A stretch of 22,987 nt of DNA, taken from a virus. This document shows, in pieces, positions 1-22,854 of this stretch (position 1 is the first letter of the stretch; each line of letters opens with the position of its first letter). The stretch covers positions 1 to 22,987 of the IMG/VR virus record IMGVR_UViG_3300047446_000273. One strand, 5' to 3'. The position numbers and the translations under genes were made by a program. The notes beneath the pieces were generated by a model that saw nothing but the letters and a program-made list of their open reading frames with translations, made no database searches and had not been told where the DNA came from.

Positions 1-1035
1 TCACTTAGTTGGCGTGACCTTTTTGCCGATCCGTTTGCGGATGTAATTCTCGGTCATTACCACCGTGGTGTGCCCAAGTTGGTCCCTCGCTTGCAGGATA
101 TCTCCACTGGATTCCGCTTTATCGGTACCAGCCTTTGCACGTAAGTCGCGCATCTGAAAGTCTCCTTTTTCAACGCCGGCCGCCTCGCGGGCCGCATCAA
201 ACCTCCCTCGCAACATGCTGCTGGTCATTGGTTGCCCGTTATCCATAACGATGAGCCTACTTGTTCGTATCTTGTGCCCGTCCTTTCTAGCCATGATTCG
301 ATCAATCACAACCTTCAGCTCGCCCGTTATCTCAATCCTCCGCTTTGCGTTCGTCTTGCCTTGTTTCACGGCCAGCCTGTTGTCGCGGATGTCACGCTCG
401 TCCATTTTCAGCGTGTCCGCTATACGTTGGCCCGTCAGGTAGAACAGATCAAGCGCATCTCGCAGCGGCTGTTCGGCGTGCTGATACACCAGGGCGAACA
501 TCTCATCCTCAATGTATTGATCACGGCCTGACTCTTTGTGCCCCTTTACGCCGGCGCACGGGTTGGCTAAGGCCGTATAGCCGCTGCTCCTGGCAAAGTT
601 CCAGATGGCGCTGAGCAGTGCCTTCTCTCGGTTGGCTCGCACTGGCGCTGTCTTGCCGCGTTGGCGCAGGTACTGCACAACGTGCTGTGGCTCAATCGCT
701 TCCAGTGGCGCTGGCGGATCGTCGAAGAACTTCAGCAAGTGCTTCAACTCTCGGACGTTATCTTTTTGTGTGGCCACGCCCTTGGTGGGAACCACCTCGA
801 GCATGTAGATCTCCGCCACATAGGCGAAGGTGAGCACGGTCTGAACCAAAGCCGATGACACGCGGCTTTTCTCCATCTTTGCGTATTCTACGATCGCCAG
901 CCCGTAATCGCTGCCTAGCGGAATCTCTTTCCTGGGTGAGCCTCCGACGTCGTAGTAGTAATAGATTGTCCCGCTGCGCTGCTTGCGCTTCCTGAGTCGC
1001 GTAACGCTGTCAGGTGTTGTTGGTTTCCTTCCCAT
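1..1035 (-). CDS. int: Phage tyrosine integrase
   Basis: Site-specific recombinase that would integrate and excise the prophage at its attachment site. The 344-residue protein has a basic N-terminal arm (about residues 1-60), a core-binding domain (about 65-165) and a catalytic domain (about 170-344). Catalytic residues are readable: R204 (TGQR), a beta-hairpin lysine near K227, R299 in RDLR, H322 in LGHT and nucleophile Y331 in ENYIR. The usual box II histidine is R296, a substitution common in phage integrases. Length is normal. The start has a GGTGAG ribosome site and directly abuts the stop of the DUF4224 gene, so the two are probably co-transcribed. The stop codon is at the window edge, so the attachment site should lie just outside. 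Confidence 0.95.
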   Translation of the reverse strand: MGRKPTTPDSVTRLRKRKQRSGTIYYYYDVGGSPRKEIPLGSDYGLAIVEYAKMEKSRVSSALVQTVLTFAYVAEIYMLEVVPTKGVATQKDNVRELKHLLKFFDDPPAPLEAIEPQHVVQYLRQRGKTAPVRANREKALLSAIWNFARSSGYTALANPCAGVKGHKESGRDQYIEDEMFALVYQHAEQPLRDALDLFYLTGQRIADTLKMDERDIRDNRLAVKQGKTNAKRRIEITGELKVVIDRIMARKDGHKIRTSRLIVMDNGQPMTSSMLRGRFDAAREAAGVEKGDFQMRDLRAKAGTDKAESSGDILQARDQLGHTTVVMTENYIRKRIGKKVTPTK

Positions 1036-4619: not shown

Positions 4620-6716
4620 TTACGCTGCGCGTGATTGGCGTTGCTCGGCGCGCCACGGGTCGTTGGCCCGTGCCAGCGCTGCCATCGGCGGTGGGCTGAC
4701 GCTGTTACCGCACATGTGCACCTGCTGGGTCTTGGTGAACGGTTTGCCGTCGGCACCGTGGCTGATGATGTAATCGGCCGGGAAGCCCTGGGCCTTGTAC
4801 AGCTCAGCTGGTTTCAGCATCCGCAGGCAGATGTCGACGATCACGTAGGGCGTACCTTTCACCATCACGGTGACCATAGCCAGGCGGTCCTTGGTGGTGA
4901 TCGTCGGCGCCGGTGAGTCGCAAGCGCTGATGTTCTCCGTGCCGTAGTAGCTGATCAGGAATGCCGCGACGCGCAGGGCGCCCGCCTCATGCTCTGGCGA
5001 CAGGGTGAGCGACACCAGCGAGCTTTTGCCACCGCCGCCGGCCGTGATGGTCGGCGCCGGATCATTCAGCCCCTGGCCGACGCTGCCGCCGAATGCCCGC
5101 TCCATGAACGCGCTGACCAGCCCGTGGTGCTGGCCGCCGGCACTGACGGTGTGCAGCGGTTCGTTTACGTCGCGTGCATCGCAGTTGCCGCGCAAGTGCA
5201 CCAGGTTCGCCACCGCCAGTTGCTGCTGGCTGCCGCTGTTGGTCACGGTCGTCATGGGTTCGTGCATGCCCTTGGCGTGCGTGGTGTTGAACCCGCCGTT
5301 GGCCTGAATCATCACTGCGGTGCTGACGGACTGGCCGCCGCCGCTGGCAGTGACGGTGCCCACCGGCCCGTTGATGTCGTTGATTCCGTGGGAGCGGCGT
5401 TTGTTTGCGCCTGAACCCTCGCCATGTCCGGCCTGGACGATGCAGGCTGATGCCAGTGCATGCTTCACGCCGCCTGCGACAACCGTGCCCAGGGGCTGAT
5501 CCAAGCCAGGCACCCGTGGCTCTTGCCCTTGCCGCTCGCCGTAGCCCGACTGAATCAGCGTGGGGCTGATCAGTGTAAGCTCGCCGCGATTCGCGCAGGT
5601 CACCGTGGGTAGCGGCTCAAGCGGGTCATTGATGCGATCGCTGCCTTGGTGTGTTGCCGGGGCAATCACCGGGCTCACCACCGAGAACGCTCCGCCCTTC
5701 GGGTAGGAGGTGATAGTGCGCAGCGGCTCGCCCGCGGATTGCACCGACTCACCCGACCAGTTCGCGATAGGCACAATGAACGGCGCCGGGCTATCGATGA
5801 CGAATTTCTTCATGCCCTTGGCAACCCGGCGCAGGGTGGCGTCGGCCAGGTCTTTCTTGCGGCCGAAGATACTTTTGCCCAGGTCGCTGAAGTCGATGCA
5901 GTCGGCGGCGGTCTTCCACTTCTGCTGACCCTTGACCGGGTTCTTCGCGTGGGTCGGCTCAGGCCACACCACCGGCCGGCCATCGCACCGGGCGATCATG
6001 AATAGGCGTTCCCGGCTGGTTGGTGCACCGAAGTCGCAGGCCTTGATAACTTTCCACTCCGCCACATAGCCCATGCCTTCCAGCAGGGCCACGAAGCGGC
6101 GCCAGGTGCGGCCGCGCTGTTTCGGGTCAGGCACCAAGAACTGGTTCGACACCGGCACTTGTTCGCCCGGTGCCGCCACCCGGTTGGTGGTTTTCCCTTT
6201 CTTGGTCGGGTGCGGCACCTGGTCCAGGGTCACAACCCGGCCGGTGGCCTTGTCGCGCTTGGCGATCAACCGGCCCCATTGCAGGATCTGCTTCACGTTC
6301 TCCAGGCTGATCACCCGTGGCCGCTTCATGCCTGCCCACTTGAGGCCGATCCACGACAGGTTGCGGATCTCGCGCTTGCGCGGTTGGCCGCCGGCTGCCT
6401 GGGAGTGGTGGGTGCAGTCCGGCGACATATGGAACCAGCCAACGGCCTTGCCGCCGCACTCGGTGTCCGGATCACCCTCGAACACGTCGGTGGTGAAGTG
6501 CTGCGCGCCGGGGTGGTTTACGGTGTGCATGCTGATCGCCTGCGGGCTGTGGTTCTTCGCCACGTTCACCGTGCGACCCAATCCCATCTCCAGGCCGGTC
6601 CCGGCACCTCCGCCACCGCAGAAGAAGTCGACAACGATCTCATCGTCCTGAGGGTTGAAGCCGAGTCCGTATTGGGTTTTGAAATCGAAGGGGTGTTTCT
6701 TCTGTTGTGCGGACAT
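4620..6716 (-). CDS. C5 cytosine DNA methyltransferase with internal tandem repeats
   Basis: A 698-residue S-adenosylmethionine-dependent DNA cytosine methyltransferase. It probably modifies phage DNA against host restriction. Motif I is DFFCGGGGAGTG (30-41). The catalytic motif is SPDCTHHS with nucleophile C101, instead of the classical PCQ. ENV is at 139-141, SRERLFM at 234-240, and the final GNSVSPPP at 670-677. Between motifs VIII and IX, where the target-recognition domain lies, are about eight imperfect repeats of 33-49 residues. Each carries P-x-x-T-[VI]-[TVS], starting near 331, 368, 408, 451, 487, 520, 553 and 602, often followed by Gly-Gly and a hydrophobic strand. GAGG precedes the ATG. 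It is longer than typical Dcm (about 470) because of the repeats. Target sequence unknown. Confidence 0.93.
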   Translation of the reverse strand: MSAQQKKHPFDFKTQYGLGFNPQDDEIVVDFFCGGGGAGTGLEMGLGRTVNVAKNHSPQAISMHTVNHPGAQHFTTDVFEGDPDTECGGKAVGWFHMSPDCTHHSQAAGGQPRKREIRNLSWIGLKWAGMKRPRVISLENVKQILQWGRLIAKRDKATGRVVTLDQVPHPTKKGKTTNRVAAPGEQVPVSNQFLVPDPKQRGRTWRRFVALLEGMGYVAEWKVIKACDFGAPTSRERLFMIARCDGRPVVWPEPTHAKNPVKGQQKWKTAADCIDFSDLGKSIFGRKKDLADATLRRVAKGMKKFVIDSPAPFIVPIANWSGESVQSAGEPLRTITSYPKGGAFSVVSPVIAPATHQGSDRINDPLEPLPTVTCANRGELTLISPTLIQSGYGERQGQEPRVPGLDQPLGTVVAGGVKHALASACIVQAGHGEGSGANKRRSHGINDINGPVGTVTASGGGQSVSTAVMIQANGGFNTTHAKGMHEPMTTVTNSGSQQQLAVANLVHLRGNCDARDVNEPLHTVSAGGQHHGLVSAFMERAFGGSVGQGLNDPAPTITAGGGGKSSLVSLTLSPEHEAGALRVAAFLISYYGTENISACDSPAPTITTKDRLAMVTVMVKGTPYVIVDICLRMLKPAELYKAQGFPADYIISHGADGKPFTKTQQVHMCGNSVSPPPMAALARANDPWRAEQRQSRAA

Positions 6717-6785: not shown

Positions 6786-7547
6786 TTGAAAAAGGATTGG
6801 GTGGTCTGGTGCGGATGTATTGGGCTGTTTTTAGCGGGCGGAATCTACTTCAACATGCTTCCCCGAGTTGTTTGGAAAACAGAGGTCGGTGTTGCTGATG
6901 TGGTTGGAGGGTTTTCAGCAATTGCTGCGGCAGTTGCTGCCTTCGCTGCTTGGCGTGCGGCAAGCATTGCCAACAAACAATCAACAGATAGCGCGTTATC
7001 GATCAGATGGCAGATGTACAAGATGCATCTCGATTCTTTCAATGAGTGGTTGCAAGGAATTGAGTTTGATCAAGGTGTGGTTTTTTACAGGAAGCATGAG
7101 CTTTACGAAATAATGTTTCCTTTCAATAGGGATCCATCAGAGGCATTCAGTGATAAAGGTTCATCAGAAGTTGTGTCGTGGGCTAATAGTTTTAAAAGGT
7201 TAGCTGATGTCGCATGCACATACAAAGCTCTGGGGCCTAGAGAGATCGAGGAGTGGATTTTTGACTATGCTCGTATTACTGGATACATGAGGTACTACTT
7301 GTTGTCGCCTGATGATAAACAGTTCTTTTTTGATAATAGGCTTGCTACCGGTGTAAGTATTGATAATTACGAGGATGTATTGCCCGCTATGAATAGTATT
7401 GTTGAACGGCTCTCTAAATTCGCTTTTGTTGATTTGAAGTATGGGTATAGGGGGATGACGGCAGAATTCAAAGAGTCATTTATGGGATTCTACTTTGATG
7501 TTTCTATGAATAACTACAATCAGCATTCATATAGAGAGAATCCTTGA
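6786..7547 (+). CDS. Membrane-anchored accessory protein of unknown function
   Basis: A 253-residue protein beginning at TTG, preceded by GGAG eight bases upstream. Two membrane segments open it: about 6-24 (VVWCGCIGLFLAGGIYF) and about 36-58 (VADVVGGFSAIAAAVAAFAAW). A cytoplasmic domain follows from about residue 65, rich in aromatic and acidic residues (RWQMYKMHLDSFNEWLQGI, FYRKHELYEIMFPFNRDPSEAF). The gene is clearly more AT-rich than its flanks, uses AT-rich codons, and is the only rightward gene between two leftward blocks. These are typical signs of a horizontally acquired 'moron'. The two-helix-plus-soluble-domain design recalls membrane effectors of phage-defence or exclusion systems, but I recognise no family. 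Confidence 0.8.
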   Translation: MKKDWVVWCGCIGLFLAGGIYFNMLPRVVWKTEVGVADVVGGFSAIAAAVAAFAAWRAASIANKQSTDSALSIRWQMYKMHLDSFNEWLQGIEFDQGVVFYRKHELYEIMFPFNRDPSEAFSDKGSSEVVSWANSFKRLADVACTYKALGPREIEEWIFDYARITGYMRYYLLSPDDKQFFFDNRLATGVSIDNYEDVLPAMNSIVERLSKFAFVDLKYGYRGMTAEFKESFMGFYFDVSMNNYNQHSYRENP

Positions 7548-17964: not shown

Positions 17965-18540
17965 TCAGTCGGTAATTGGAGGGTACTTGCCACTCGCCGA
18001 GTCACGATAGACGACCTCACAGAAAAGCCGTGGCCCGTCGCGGAGAGCCGCAAGGGCGCGCTTGGCTTCTTCCTTGGTTTCGTATGGGCCGGCACCGACC
18101 GCTAGGCCGATCATTGATACAACGGGAAGACCAGCCATCGCTATGGCGTCCATAGTTCGCTCCTGCTCATCTTTGTCGCGGCAGGACGTCGAAGCTACCC
18201 AGCCAACCTTCAGTCGAGGGGGCTTTGCTGGTTCAACGTCGGCGCCGCAGTGCTTGCACTTGATAGCGGCATTTTTGATTGTTTCAGCGCACAAAGGGCA
18301 AGGGCGCGACCCGGATTCCGCTTGAGCGTGTGCGGTCGGTGCTCTGCCGCCCAGAAGAACCATAAGCAGGCCAGCCAGCGCAATGACGCCCCCGACGATT
18401 GTATGGACCTGGCGATCCGCCATGAGACCCAGATTGTTTACACGTCCACCGGCGCCAGTCGGTACGGACACATCCATGCTCAGCGCGAAAATCAGCCAGC
18501 ACACGCCGACGATCAACGCGAACGCCCCAAATCCCTTCAT
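17965..18540 (-). CDS. Membrane protein with zinc ribbon and SPOR-like domain
   Basis: A 191-residue protein; the start at 18540 has a strong AGGAGG six bases upstream. Membrane segments lie at about 4-22 (FGAFALIVGVCWLIFALSM) and 47-65 (IVGGVIALAGLLMVLLGG). A zinc ribbon follows (CPLC at about 81-84, CKHC at about 95-98), then a C-terminal domain (VGWVASTSC to KEEAKRALAALRDG). Its VGAGPYETKEEAKRAL stretch has the SPOR pattern of peptidoglycan-binding domains. Whether the C-terminal part is cytoplasmic or periplasmic is unclear. It is isolated between two terminators in the lysogen-expressed region, fitting a superinfection-exclusion or lysogenic-conversion role (inference). Confidence 0.78.
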   Translation of the reverse strand: MKGFGAFALIVGVCWLIFALSMDVSVPTGAGGRVNNLGLMADRQVHTIVGGVIALAGLLMVLLGGRAPTAHAQAESGSRPCPLCAETIKNAAIKCKHCGADVEPAKPPRLKVGWVASTSCRDKDEQERTMDAIAMAGLPVVSMIGLAVGAGPYETKEEAKRALAALRDGPRLFCEVVYRDSASGKYPPITD

Positions 18541-18636
18541 TGGAACCTCCTGTAATTGAGCAAATAATTTACCAGCCCTGGCGAATAGACTCCAAAAACT
18601 TGAGGGCAATCAATGCTATAAATTAGTGCTCATTAA

Positions 18637-18663
18637 AAAAAGCCCGTGCGTGGCGGGCTTTTT
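18637..18663 (-). terminator. Intrinsic terminator (bidirectional form)
   Basis: AAAAAGCCCG/CGGGCTTTTT, 10 bp with a 7-base loop, with T-rich continuation on the leftward strand. It closes the cI-HipA-HIRAN unit, about 40 bases after the last stop. Confidence 0.88.
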
Positions 18664-18702: not shown

Positions 18703-19398
18703 TTATGTATATTTAACAAGTACCAAAAGTCTTGGCTTTCCCTTGGTGTTAGTGAACTTTATAATGCTGCCTGTTAAGTCGCCAGAATTAATCAGATTTG
18801 TAAAGCTAGGCGCAAGAGCTTTATTAATATATCCGACATGTTTGTTGTTGTGTATTATCTTCACAGCTGATGTGTCATGAAGGTTTGTCGGGTCTTTTTC
18901 AAAGAAAACTCTATCTGATTCAGAAAATACTGAATCACCCATGTGATGAGTTAAGCCCGCGACTTCCACGATCAAGTCTAGCGGCGCCTTTGCGTCACTG
19001 AGGTCGGGGCATAGTTCAAAGGTATCACTGGGCAAGCGAGCACCAGTGTAGGCCAATAGGGCGAAGGAAGATCCAGCAAAATCTATCGGGAGATTGTACT
19101 GCTTGAGGTACTCTTGAAAATCCTCACGCCTTCTGGGAGGCAACCTGCGAACAAACACGTCCAAGGCCCCTAATTTATCATGTTCTCCTTTCGCGTCCGC
19201 AAACGCAGGGAACTCATGAAATCCTTCTTCCAAAGCAAGTCTAAAGTCGTCTGTCCCTTTTAAATATTTGAAAGAGGCGTCATCACCATGTCTCAATAGC
19301 TCACCAACAACACGCCTGTTTTTCGGCGCATCGGCATTTGCGTGATGCCAGACAAGCAACAACCTTGACGGCTCGAAAATGTGTTCAATTTCGTTCAT
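18703..19398 (-). CDS. HIRAN-domain protein with HipA-N-like region, partner of the kinase
   Basis: A 231-residue protein. The C-terminal 90 residues (RVFFEKDPTNLHDTSAVKII, HNNKHVGYINKALAPSFTNL) fit the HIRAN domain, which in other proteins binds DNA ends or damaged forks. The first 130 residues look like the N-terminal lobe of HipA (LVWHHA, VGELLRHGDDASFKYLKG, LGALDVFVRRLPPRRREDF, LLAYTGARLPSDTFEL), a part missing from the adjacent kinase. The ATG overlaps the kinase stop by ATGA, so the two are translated together. The gene is AT-richer than its surroundings. It probably regulates or targets the kinase; both domain calls are by eye. Confidence 0.75.
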   Translation of the reverse strand: MNEIEHIFEPSRLLLVWHHANADAPKNRRVVGELLRHGDDASFKYLKGTDDFRLALEEGFHEFPAFADAKGEHDKLGALDVFVRRLPPRRREDFQEYLKQYNLPIDFAGSSFALLAYTGARLPSDTFELCPDLSDAKAPLDLIVEVAGLTHHMGDSVFSESDRVFFEKDPTNLHDTSAVKIIHNNKHVGYINKALAPSFTNLINSGDLTGSIIKFTNTKGKPRLLVLVKYT

Positions 19399-20354
19399 TT
19401 TAGGATATCCAGTGCCAGCTGCGCACGTCTACTTGTCAGCCTGAAAATGAAATCGGCTCGTGCTTGGGTGAGATTACCACCACCAGGAGCCGGAATGTCA
19501 ACGAGAGACTGTAGGATGTCTCGGAAGGTTCCTAGGTCAAAATCCTTTAGTTTTTTCAGGAGAAGACCGCGAACGTCCTTACGCGCTTTTGATATGAAAG
19601 TGAGTGATTCCAAGTGCCCAATGCGGTCGAGTTCGGCTTGCGAAATCCTTATGTGGTGCCTGCCACGATTTATGTACCTTTCCAGGGCTTCATCGTCCCA
19701 TTGCGAGAATTTTGCAGGCAGCAATTCGTGTCCCAAGCTGGTGCCGTTGTCAAACCAGGGTGCAAACCTCCACTTAATTTCATAGAGTTCTCCTCTGCGT
19801 CTGGCAACGCTTTTCGGGAGTTTGACCGCTTGCAAAAGGTGTCCCCAATTATCTTGGTGTCGATCAGTGTTACCTATTATTGAATCGAAAAGCATCATAG
19901 ACCAAAACTCATAAATATGGTCTCGACCCAATGCCCCACTGTTGAATTTATCAGCATCTAATATATTGTGTTGCGTTCCACGCTCCCGGTCAAAACCAGG
20001 AATTATTTTGTGGAAGAAGTTGCCCGCAGAGTAAAAGTCTGTCTCGCCCTCTTCATAGAACCACGCGCTTAATGCTCCACATTGACCATTAGTCGAATCG
20101 AAGGCTGCGTAGCAAGGAGGGGCGGGTACTTTAAGGAGTACTGAAATTTCGTAAGCAATAATCTCAGCCCAAAATTGCTCGGGATATCTGTTTGCCGAGC
20201 GCTTAAACATGTGACGCCAATCGGGCTTTATAAAGCTTTCATTGGGTACACTTGGTGAAAAAAGCGTTCGCTTCGGCCTAGCTCCCTCGGGATAGGCGGC
20301 AGGCGAAGCCTCATCTTCCGGCCAATTTGCGATATCTATAAACTTCTCTTGCAT
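19395..20354 (-). CDS. HipA-like serine/threonine kinase
   Basis: A 319-residue protein kinase of the HipA superfamily. Visible kinase features: FIKPDWRHMFKRS (41-53) for nucleotide binding, FWAEIIAYEIS (61-71) with helix-C glutamate E64, catalytic loop GNTDRHQDNWG (161-171) with D164 and N169, and the metal-binding FDNGTSLG (201-208) with D202. The usual HipA N-terminal lobe is absent and appears to be encoded by the overlapping next gene. AAGGA and GGAG precede the ATG. It lies about 100 bases downstream of cI on the same strand, so it is probably expressed in the lysogen from the repressor promoter. HipA kinases act as growth-arrest toxins; a defence role here is inference. Confidence 0.85.
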   Translation of the reverse strand: MQEKFIDIANWPEDEASPAAYPEGARPKRTLFSPSVPNESFIKPDWRHMFKRSANRYPEQFWAEIIAYEISVLLKVPAPPCYAAFDSTNGQCGALSAWFYEEGETDFYSAGNFFHKIIPGFDRERGTQHNILDADKFNSGALGRDHIYEFWSMMLFDSIIGNTDRHQDNWGHLLQAVKLPKSVARRRGELYEIKWRFAPWFDNGTSLGHELLPAKFSQWDDEALERYINRGRHHIRISQAELDRIGHLESLTFISKARKDVRGLLLKKLKDFDLGTFRDILQSLVDIPAPGGGNLTQARADFIFRLTSRRAQLALDILK

Positions 20355-20428
20355 TCTCCATCCTTAGGAACTAACTCTCGCCGGGTAGAGCTCTTGGCTT
20401 GCTGGGCCCAATTTATGCCACCACCGCT

Positions 20429-20446
20429 AGCGCCAGTTCGGGCGCT
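20429..20446 (-). promoter_or_regulatory. Hairpin between cI and the kinase gene
   Basis: AGCGCC/GGCGCT with a 6-base loop, about 12 bases beyond the cI stop. No T-run follows on the leftward strand, so it looks like an attenuating or mRNA-processing hairpin rather than a full terminator. This would allow partial read-through to the HipA-like gene. Confidence 0.5.
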
Positions 20447-20457
20447 GTAAGTTCTTT

Positions 20458-21126
20458 TTAGTAAAACTTCTGAAGCGCCTGAACAACCACACCCACGATC
20501 CGACATTTCTCGTCTACGGCCTCGATGGGGTAGCTCGGGTTCAATGGTTTGAGGAACAACCGGCCGCCGTCGCTGACCAGCTTCTTGAATGTGGCTTCGT
20601 TGCTGTCCGGCAGCTTGGCCACTACCAGCTTACCTGGCGCAACCTCAGCCTCAGTGTCCACCAGAATCAGCGTGCCTTCGGTGATGCTTTGGCCGGCGGG
20701 CGCCGTCATCGAGTCACCTTTAACTGTTAGCCAGAACGCCGGTCCTTTGGAGTCGTACTCCGAAAATTCGTAGGTGTCAGAAATTCCAGCCGGGTAAGGC
20801 TCTACAGCTTCCGACCAGGCGCCGGCGGCAACCCAGCTCACAACCGGGTAGCGGAAAGATTTGGTGGGCTGGGCGGCAGGGGAGACGTTCGATTCACCAG
20901 TGCCGGACGTTAACCCAAGAGCAAGCATTGGCCCGATCTCGTCTGAGAGCCATTTGGCGTTAACCCCACATGCATCGGCGATCTTCACGACGTGTGCGGT
21001 GGCTTTCGATTTTCCACGCTCAAGGTCAGAAATCGACGTCTGCGTGATACCAGCTTTAGCGGCCAATTCGCCCTGATTGAGCTTGGCGTGCCGGCGCGCT
21101 GCCTTTAAACGATCTTTGAATTCCAT
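20458..21126 (-). CDS. cI: CI-type phage repressor, LexA-like self-cleaving
   Basis: A 222-residue repressor that maintains lysogeny. The N-terminal helix-turn-helix is at about 7-57 (LKAARRHAKLNQGELAAKAG, ITQTSISDLERGKSKAT). The C-terminal S24 peptidase domain has the cleavage Ala-Gly at 101-102 (WVAAGAW), Ser139 in GDSM and Lys181 in TFKKL, so RecA-stimulated autocleavage on SOS induction is expected. The start at 21126 is set by family length; reading on upstream would cross the operators. The ATG is within a few bases of the predicted transcript start and has no ribosome site, as for lambda cI from PRM. Confidence 0.95.
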   Translation of the reverse strand: MEFKDRLKAARRHAKLNQGELAAKAGITQTSISDLERGKSKATAHVVKIADACGVNAKWLSDEIGPMLALGLTSGTGESNVSPAAQPTKSFRYPVVSWVAAGAWSEAVEPYPAGISDTYEFSEYDSKGPAFWLTVKGDSMTAPAGQSITEGTLILVDTEAEVAPGKLVVAKLPDSNEATFKKLVSDGGRLFLKPLNPSYPIEAVDEKCRIVGVVVQALQKFY

Positions 21127-21133
21127 GCAGCGA

Positions 21134-21162
21134 GTATTACGGGTGCTCCCATATCCTTGCAA
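21134..21162 (-). promoter_or_regulatory. Repressor maintenance promoter (PRM-like)
   Basis: Leftward TTGCAA (21157-21162), 17-bp spacer, TAATAC (21134-21139). The -10 is followed by seven bases and then the cI ATG, so the mRNA is nearly leaderless. The spacer holds one operator (21139-21152), whose occupation should repress cI. Confidence 0.75.
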
Positions 21163-21200
21163 ATCGGTATTCCCATAATCTACTATATGGGTATTCCCGT
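21139..21200. promoter_or_regulatory. Right operator triplet (OR)
   Basis: ACGGGTGCTCCCAT (21139-21152), ATCGGTATTCCCAT (21163-21176) and ATGGGTATTCCCGT (21187-21200), with centres exactly 24 bp apart. They share the ATGGGTATTCCCAT consensus with the two sites at 17462-17500. The first lies in the leftward promoter spacer, the second in the rightward promoter spacer, and the third over the rightward start. Confidence 0.85.
21157..21186 (+). promoter_or_regulatory. Early rightward promoter (PR-like)
   Basis: TTGCAA (21157-21162), 18-bp spacer, TACTAT (21181-21186), giving a start near 21193. TTGCAA is its own reverse complement and is also the -35 of the leftward repressor promoter, so only one polymerase should be able to use it at a time. 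Confidence 0.7.
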
Positions 21201-21213
21201 ATGGAGGGGCGAC

Positions 21214-21429
21214 ATGAACACTATCTATAAGGACCTCGTTGCCTTCTTCGGCACCCAGGAGGTCACCGCTGAAAAGCTCAAGGTTGATCAAAGCACCGTT
21301 TCCGGTTGGGTTCGCGAAAAGCACGGCATGTCTCCAGTGGTTGCCAAGCGAGCGGAGGCGTTGACCGGAGGTGCTTTCAAAAAAGAGTCCCTTTGTCCGT
21401 CGTTTCCCTGGGCCGAGATGGCCGCCTAA
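21214..21429 (+). CDS. cro: Cro-like regulator, YdaS-type helix-turn-helix
   Basis: A 71-residue DNA-binding protein. The start at 21214 has GGAGGGG five bases upstream. Helix-turn-helix at about 16-38: VTAEKLKVDQSTVSGWVREK, followed by GMSPVVAKRAEALTGG and SLCPSFPW, the typical layout of YdaS/Cro-like phage regulators. It is the first gene of the rightward promoter and divergent from cI, so it should act as the lytic-side repressor of the cI promoter. It may be a poor relative of lambda Cro in sequence; the call rests on the HTH and position. Confidence 0.88.
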   Translation: MNTIYKDLVAFFGTQEVTAEKLKVDQSTVSGWVREKHGMSPVVAKRAEALTGGAFKKESLCPSFPWAEMAA

Positions 21430-21515
21430 GCGACATCCCCGTCCGCCGCTCCATTGAGCAAATGATCGCCTCTGCACTTGTAGGGCGCCACGGAAACAAA
21501 TTTGAGGTTTTACGA

Positions 21516-21938
21516 ATGGAAGACTTTTTGGATGCATGCCAGGCAGCAGTGAAGGGCAATGAGCCCAAGACCCTGGCTGCAAAGATGGGTGTTCCTCACG
21601 TTGGCCTGCTTCAGCGCGCAAATCCAGATAACGAGGCTCACCACCTGACCGTGGAGCATCTTTTCGGGATCTTGCTGCACACCGGCGACATGCGTCCGCT
21701 TGAAGCCTTGGCAAATGAGTTCGGCTTTGAGCTGGTGGCGAAGGCCGCGCCCAAGCCGCAAGGGCTCACAAAGTCGCTGATCAATGTCGCGAAGGAAGTG
21801 GCCGACCTGACCATCGCCGTGCATGAGGCGCTGGACGACAACCACGTCAGCACCTTCGAAAAGAACCTAATCCGCCAAGAGATCAACCACGTCCGCCAGA
21901 GCCTGGACGTGATGGATGCATCGGTAAAGGCCGCCTGA
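21516..21938 (+). CDS. cII: Phage CII-type regulatory protein (CP76 family)
   Basis: A 140-residue protein. The ATG at 21516 has GAGG eight bases upstream; the frame is open further left, but those residues overlap cro. The sequence MEDFLDACQAAVKGNEPKTLAAKMG, then LLQRANPDNEAHHLTVEHLFGILLHTGDMRPLEALANEFGFEL, matches the Phage_CP76 family of lysogeny-establishing regulators of gammaproteobacterial phages. The C terminus is helical (SLINVAKEVADLTIAVHEAL). A DNA-binding N terminus is presumed. It follows cro on the same transcript. Confidence 0.85.
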   Translation: MEDFLDACQAAVKGNEPKTLAAKMGVPHVGLLQRANPDNEAHHLTVEHLFGILLHTGDMRPLEALANEFGFELVAKAAPKPQGLTKSLINVAKEVADLTIAVHEALDDNHVSTFEKNLIRQEINHVRQSLDVMDASVKAA

Positions 21939-22005: not shown

Positions 22006-22854
22006 ATGCAAACCCCGCCACATATCAATAGCGCTACCAATCTCGCGCCACGTTTTCCGCAATCTGAAAACGTGGCGCGCAATCCCTCAGTGATTCCGTT
22101 CGACTTCGACGGCGCCGCAATCCGCGTCATCACCGACAAACTCGGCGATCCGTGGTTTATCGCGCGCGATGTCGCTGATGCCCTGGGCTACTCCAAACCT
22201 GAGAACGCCGTGGCCCGCCACTGCAAGGCCGCGACCACTACCCCGAAACAGGGTGGTGGTTTCATGACCATCATTCCTGAGCGCGATCTGTACCGGCTGG
22301 TGATGAAGTCGAAGCTGCCGGCCGCCGAGAAGTTCGAAGAGTGGGTGGTGGGCCAGGTGCTGCCAAGCATCCGCAAGACGGGCTCGTTTTCTGCCCAAGG
22401 CCCGAACAACTCCAAGATCGTTGGCGAACTCGCCATTCTGGAATGCTTCGACCGCCTGCTGAAGCCTGCGAACTCCAGCAAGATGATGATGCTGGCCAAG
22501 ATCGCTACCAACAACGGTCTGGACGCCAAGTTCCTTCCAGGCTACGCCGTGGATGCGGCCCCTGACGCCGCTGGCGGCTCTTCGATGCCAACCAAGGCCA
22601 TCACCGCTCTGATCAAAGATCACACCATCGCCAGCACGGCGCGCGCCTTCAACCTCGTACTTCAAGCCCACGGCTTCCTGGCGCTACTCCAGCGCAAAAA
22701 CTCCAAGCAGGAAACCGTCGACTTCTGGTCTGTGACCGAGAAGGGCATGACCTACGGCAAGAACCTCACCAGCCCCCAATGCCCCCGCGAAACGCAGCCT
22801 CATTGGTACGTGGATCGCTTCCTCGAATTGGCCGCTAAGGTCGGGAAGGCCTGA
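22006..22854 (+). CDS. BRO-N family phage antirepressor
   Basis: A 282-residue protein. The BRO-N domain is at about 29-130: VIPFDFDGAAIRVITDKLG, PWFIARDVADALGYSKPENAV, IIPERDLYRLVMKSKLPAAEKFEEWVVGQVLPSIRKTGSF. The middle is variable. The C-terminal domain (about 215-282: FLALLQRKN, FWSVTEKGMTYGKNL, PHWYVDRFLELAAKVG) resembles antirepressor C-terminal regions of the KilAC or P22 Ant type. Such proteins bind and inactivate phage repressors or alter early gene control. GAGG precedes the ATG at 22006. It follows the cII gene after a 67-base gap containing the hairpin at 21950. Confidence 0.9.
   Translation: MQTPPHINSATNLAPRFPQSENVARNPSVIPFDFDGAAIRVITDKLGDPWFIARDVADALGYSKPENAVARHCKAATTTPKQGGGFMTIIPERDLYRLVMKSKLPAAEKFEEWVVGQVLPSIRKTGSFSAQGPNNSKIVGELAILECFDRLLKPANSSKMMMLAKIATNNGLDAKFLPGYAVDAAPDAAGGSSMPTKAITALIKDHTIASTARAFNLVLQAHGFLALLQRKNSKQETVDFWSVTEKGMTYGKNLTSPQCPRETQPHWYVDRFLELAAKVGKA

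Follow-up and report, generated by a model that had tools for sequence, protein, structure and literature searches.

A hipIN kinase-HIRAN gene pair, a likely defence module, downstream of the cI-like repressor of a D3-like prophage

The window, by which we mean the whole stretch of DNA analysed, is a complete virus record of IMG/VR, 22,987 bases long, that runs from a phage integrase gene to a Bro-N gene (22006-22854). Directly downstream of a CI-like repressor of the S24 type, and on the same strand, lie two genes, hipI and hipN (Table 1). They follow cI after a gap of 103 bp (the cI start, an ATG at 21126, is our choice of start codon), share an ATGA overlap and are followed by a terminator-like stem. 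The G+C content of the pair is 46.2%, against 58.2% for the remainder of the record. A scan of the minus strand between cI and hipI revealed no promoter-like site, although scans of this kind are weak evidence, and searches of Rfam and NCBIfam returned no match and no useful match, respectively. The gap between cI and hipI holds a short hairpin (AGCGCC...GGCGCT, 20428-20447), with T-rich sequence on the plus-strand side only.

Table 1. Features of the window, in window positions.
Feature	Position	Strand	Remark
Phage integrase	1..1035	-	at record end
Zinc-ribbon/SPOR-like phage gene (PHROG 8032)	17965..18609	-	bounds the cargo slot
Terminator-like GC stem	18637..18663		downstream of hipN; T runs on both strands
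hipN, putative antitoxin/sensor, HipS-like + HIRAN (PDC-M03B)	18703..19398	-	231 aa
HIRAN domain of HipN	18706..18975	-	about residues 142-231
HipS/HipA-N-like part of HipN	18994..19398	-	about residues 1-135
ATGA overlap	19395..19398	-	hipI stop / hipN start
hipI, HipA-superfamily Ser/Thr kinase core without N-subdomain-1 (PDC-M03A)	19395..20354	-	319 aa
Mg-binding motif FDNGTS	19737..19754	-	HipI residues 201-206; intact
Catalytic motif GNTDRHQDNW	19845..19874	-	HipI residues 161-170; intact
Gly-rich-loop-like segment YPEGARPK	20271..20294	-	HipI residues 21-28; HipA correspondence is our reading of the sequence
cI-like repressor, HTH + Peptidase_S24	20458..21126	-	222 aa; directly upstream of hipI
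Cro-like ORF	21157..21429	+	divergent from cI; DNA similarity to PseuP_222 and D3 cro region
ORF with CII/CP76-like regulator	21306..21938	+	Pfam Phage_CP76, 7.8e-26

Pseudomonas phages, PseuP_222 and D3 among them, have similar immunity regions. PseuP_222 has both flanks of the pair in common with the window, the side running from the cI start through cro to cII at 81% and the zinc-ribbon side at 71%, but the stretch of about 4 kb that they enclose is different. The same flanks thus surround different contents, a new observation, which indicates that the slot holds exchangeable cargo. Our best reading is that hipIN is cargo in the cI-downstream slot, of the rexAB/bstA type, of a D3-like Pseudomonas prophage. 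BstA and RexAB are phage-exclusion systems that also lie directly downstream of cI (PMC8585504). The window pair shares with these systems of lambdoid prophages its position right behind cI and its probable character of lysogen-expressed cargo. However, the proteins are unrelated, and the exclusion function of RexAB and BstA is experimental whereas we infer that of the window pair. Kinship with RexAB was rejected, since neither Pfam nor PHROGs gave any Rex match and the genome position is all that is common.

Two other genes of the record deserve mention. A 253-residue ORF (6786-7547, plus strand) looks from its sequence like a second acquired cargo gene: its G+C content is 42%, it lies on the strand opposite to that of its neighbours, and the encoded protein is hydrophobic in places close to the N terminus. 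A 698-residue ORF (4620-6716, minus strand) reads like a Dcm-type cytosine-C5 methyltransferase within which a PLxTVxxGG-like unit is repeated several times.

HipI matches the Pfam family HipA_C with an E-value of 1.1e-5 and 25.7 bits, under the cut-off of 30.5. Among kinases of solved structure, a profile built from 12 of its relatives retrieved CtkA (2.2e-11) and, as a weak match, HipT of Legionella (3.3e-4). We regard the kinase fold as settled through a predicted structure: E. coli phage 899 encodes kinase and HIRAN as a natural fusion, and the AlphaFold model of that protein (pLDDT 94, pTM 0.81) matches in the PDB the kinases CtkA, HipA and HipT as well as the HIRAN domain of HLTF. The N-terminal subdomain of HipA (N-subdomain-1) is absent from HipI. 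K51 is intact, and G161, N162, D164, R165, H166, N169, W170, D202 and N203 are invariant across 101 aligned kinases. In our alignment, Tyr21 of HipI occupies the position of the autophosphorylated Ser150 of HipA, and a tyrosine or phenylalanine stands there in 94 of the 101 sequences; HipI has a serine further along, at position 33.

The second protein, HipN, matches Pfam HIRAN above the cut-off (residues 142-209, E-value 9.9e-10), and the profile of its family retrieved the human HLTF HIRAN structures (5.8e-7). Its AlphaFold model (pLDDT 95, pTM 0.90) matches the complex of HLTF HIRAN with DNA (4s0n). The columns expected to contact DNA, which we placed by aligning the family profile with HLTF and from the HLTF structures, are largely conserved (N172 in 79, D175 in 75 and A178 in 85 of 86 members), whereas the window protein has T150 where 71 of the 86 relatives carry an arginine. 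As for the first half of HipN, Couple_hipA matches residues 27-123 with an E-value of 0.089, weak by itself; the same family matches 26 of the 86 members, at best with 1.4e-8, and exceeds the cut-off in the fused protein. Foldseek with the window HipN returned no HipA or HipS match for this half, so the HipS-like assignment comes from the relatives matched by Pfam and from the fused protein. On this basis, the first half of HipN appears to correspond to the N-terminal piece of HipA that is missing from HipI. No helix-turn-helix match was obtained in HipI or HipN.

Much of the original prediction, made from the DNA, agrees with these data. It had described two overlapping AT-rich genes closed by a terminator in the rexAB-equivalent slot behind cI, the first for a HipA-superfamily kinase with intact catalytic residues and no N-lobe, the second for an N-lobe-like region joined to HIRAN. 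All these elements were recovered, and both the kinase and the HIRAN fold are supported by PDB matches of the AlphaFold models.

The pair is not a new kind. We are nearly certain, from anatomy and family, that it is a hipIN module, also known as PDC-M03: PADLOC recognised, side by side, PDC-M03A (2.1e-34) in HipI and PDC-M03B (6.3e-33) in HipN, the two components of one of its candidate phage defence systems, and no difference from that system was seen. The hipIN organisation described by Gerdes, Baerentsen and Brodersen in 2021 consists of a short kinase without N-subdomain-1 followed by HipN, itself a HipS-like domain plus HIRAN (PMC8262856). The window module displays every testable defining feature of hipIN, while the residue usual at the Ser150 position differs. 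The kinase gene comes first with its partner immediately downstream in an ATGA overlap, HIRAN is C-terminal in HipN, no HTH antitoxin is present, and HipI, with its 319 residues, core motifs and missing N-subdomain-1, fits the 279-321 residues of the short kinases in that group of families. The window copy differs in being phage-borne, behind cI, and in having a tyrosine instead of Ser/Thr at the position of HipA Ser150.

HipL combines the hipIN domains in one chain (PMC8262856); HipL proteins, also grouped as PHROG 26212, have the same three domains in identical order, but as a single chain that follows a DEDD exonuclease gene in P2-like phages. HipBST likewise associates a HipA-type kinase without lid with a separate HipS-like protein, but it possesses HipB, lacks HIRAN and has another gene order. 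The dedicated HTH protein HipB that characterises HipBA and HipBST is absent here, the upstream gene being the S24-type CI. Finally, the diDNase-HipA-HIRAN clusters of Gram-positives (PMC11706625) also place HipA and HIRAN genes by a DEDD nuclease on mobile elements, whereas the window pair has no adjoining nuclease and the nuclease of P2-like relatives is Rv2179c-like.

One part of the original prediction is not supported. It had set the arrangement apart from HipAB and HipBST for its lack of a dedicated HTH antitoxin, with CI itself as the regulator. HipN, however, has a HipS-like domain, and the antitoxin of HipBST is such a protein, an inhibitor acting beside the Gly-rich loop (PMC10627512). 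Nor is the arrangement new, since it is the hipIN organisation already described (PMC8262856). We thus rejected CI as a needed antitoxin or regulator, also because the module occurs without an adjoining CI. Altogether, the earlier interpretation is partly supported and was largely anticipated in print, including the proposed mechanism.

Our scans found 39 viral and 80 bacterial loci with relatives. The HIRAN partner lies directly downstream of the kinase gene (105 loci) or is fused to it (16 loci) in all 121 loci with sufficient contig, two further loci being left out of this count since their contigs end before the partner position. Such constancy in every testable locus, which is a new observation here, implies that the pairing is not due to chance. 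Distances among kinases and among partners are correlated (0.835, 82 pairs), a value that shows stable pairing rather than contact, as shared ancestry alone raises such a correlation. The module is rare in the likely host family, where 3 of 298 sampled genomes have it. Of 5426 complete E. coli genomes, 61 carry the fused form with at least 99% identity. Among 72,556 plasmids, we obtained a single weak match.

For 66 of the 104 loci in the nonredundant set, we scanned the same-strand gene immediately upstream. It encodes an Rv2179c-like DEDD exonuclease in 13 cases, an S24 repressor in six and the type I restriction specificity protein HsdS in four; the others are of many different kinds, ordinary chromosomal genes included. 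The six repressor-linked loci are the window, L006, L010, L020, L048 and L050. Identity among their CI proteins is mostly 21-40% (79% for L006 and L050) and among their kinases 35-73%. The occurrence of the pair directly behind CI-like repressors of at least four backgrounds is another observation that is new here. On the kinase tree, the label "behind cI" has to change five times, gains and losses being inseparable. However, four of the six copies fall in one Pseudomonas-rich group of eight rows, and five in a group of 11 rows, which makes the number of independent arrivals uncertain. In L009, we read a repressor-like gene two genes upstream of hipI, and in the C. difficile phage phiCDKH02 hipIN lies between repressor/ImmA genes and the integrase.

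The 13 exonuclease-linked loci are P2-like (L002, L016, L021, L022, L024, L027, L028, L032, L033, L034, L037, L038 and L097). The gene for this 3'-5' exonuclease lies 3-19 bp upstream of the kinase (e.g. L002:7440-9644), and kinase and HIRAN are often fused. Phage 899 has the module between its genes for replication endonuclease and portal, an interval that in P2 is the tin/old slot, and in other exonuclease-linked loci the large genes follow the order of phage 899. By analogy with the diDNase-HipA-HIRAN clusters (PMC11706625), exonuclease, kinase and HIRAN may perhaps form a three-part system in P2-like phages. A larger local system was rejected for the window, which has no further conserved neighbour, the exonuclease being confined to the P2-like group.

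In bacteria, hipIN lies 3-9 bp downstream of the hsdS gene at L061, L069, L074 and L079, and at L053 it overlaps an MmeI-type gene at that gene's end; it is thus embedded in restriction operons at these loci. The occurrence of the fused form in the P2-like tin/old slot, together with the HsdS, MmeI and AbiE-like neighbours in bacteria, is new here. The survey of homologues gave the prophage and defence association that the original prediction had called for, although many bacterial copies stand beside ordinary genes and the association with defence is to that extent partial.

Other neighbourhoods were noted, mostly by eye. The closest bacterial relative (72%; L046:8101-9562, minus strand) stands beside an AbiEii/AbiEi-like pair within cobalamin-type genes. 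In a Stutzerimonas prophage (L005:5683-7939, plus strand), the genes just upstream of hipI read like those for another HipA-like kinase (292 aa), a DUF3037-like protein (295 aa) and a CsrA-like protein (68 aa). Related proteins of about 210 residues, with no Pfam match, are encoded directly upstream of hipI at L004:3555-4193 and L009:7277-7897, the latter with a BRCT-like stretch. On the P. saliphila chromosome (L049:9983-13679, plus strand), hipIN adjoins a tyrosine-integrase-like gene and may be the main cargo of a small integrative element.

What could be the benefit for a prophage of carrying such a pair? HIRAN is associated with damaged or replicating DNA, and Gerdes et al. proposed that it recognises DNA ends or replication intermediates of an invading phage and activates the kinase so that infection is aborted, the toxicity and neutralisation of hipIN being putative in their work (PMC8262856). 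A defence role is likely for the window pair, and we hold it reasonably probable that hipIN is here a lysogen-expressed abortive-infection toxin-antitoxin module in the cI-downstream slot of a D3-like prophage. This reading is drawn from the domains, the intact catalytic motifs, the obligate pairing, the natural fusion, the recurrence in phage exclusion slots and the defence-gene neighbours. The PADLOC matches, the different cargo of PseuP_222, the shared position of BstA and RexAB and the largely conserved DNA-contact columns of HIRAN also speak for it. On the other hand, we count against it the T150 of the window HIRAN, the tyrosine at the HipA Ser150 position, the ordinary neighbours of many bacterial copies and the grouping of most cI-linked copies in the kinase tree. 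The repeated presence in slots of superinfection-blocking genes supports, without proving, a role against other phages.

One could imagine the following course of events. Transcription from the repressor promoter would run through cI, hipI and hipN, and the HipS-like domain of HipN, judging from HipBST and from the natural fusion, would dock where HipI lacks its lid and keep the kinase inactive. A superinfecting phage would expose DNA ends, single strands or replication intermediates, and their binding by HIRAN would release the kinase. The freed HipI could then phosphorylate a host factor that the cell cannot do without, an aminoacyl-tRNA synthetase being the target suggested by analogy, and the cell would arrest, aborting the infection. 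A sensor of replicating phage DNA would, however, also meet the DNA of its own prophage after induction. The prophage might spare itself if expression from the cI promoter falls once it is induced, or if it had an element like the aba of BstA. A more elaborate version, in which HipN is a true DNA-end sensor gating the kinase, temperate phages have repeatedly installed the module in exclusion slots and the P2-like exonuclease edits the DNA-end signal within a three-part system, is tentative and rather doubtful.

The same toxin-antitoxin-like anatomy, with its HipS-like antitoxin, could also serve addiction: loss of the prophage would deplete HipN, and HipI would kill or arrest the segregant, defence being at most a by-product. 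Location on mobile elements, including the copy beside an integrase in P. saliphila, is consistent with this. We nevertheless find it unlikely, as differential loss of the antitoxin is impossible at the 16 loci where both activities reside in one chain, the module is nearly absent from plasmids and exclusion genes are what the slot behind cI is known to hold. That six loci have the pair next to cI might instead point to control of lysogeny, HipI adjusting induction by phosphorylating a regulator of the phage or the host while HIRAN reads DNA damage. The link of HIRAN to damaged or replicating DNA (PMC8262856) would suit such a role, and a parallel can be drawn with the KKP module of Pf prophages, which shows that kinases of prophages can fill both roles (PMC11341870). 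But the module is also found in P2-like phages, which have another control circuit, beside restriction genes and on chromosomes without an adjoining repressor, and we consider this explanation quite improbable. Lastly, a base composition unlike that of the phage and the rarity in the likely host family would be expected of a horizontally acquired passenger with no selected function in the window phage; with both frames open, all catalytic residues kept and conservation in more than 100 relatives, this seems very unlikely.

Defence by hipIN and HipL, and sensing by bacterial HIRAN domains, have been testable guesses since 2021, and we found no experiment on them in the literature searched. The recurrence of the module behind prophage repressors, in the P2-like tin/old slot and by restriction genes brings independent support to the idea that hipIN and HipL act in defence. 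The prophage and E. coli P2-like copies offer laboratory-friendly test cases. If the proposed mechanism is true, structures in phage DNA would themselves turn on the kinase of hipIN.
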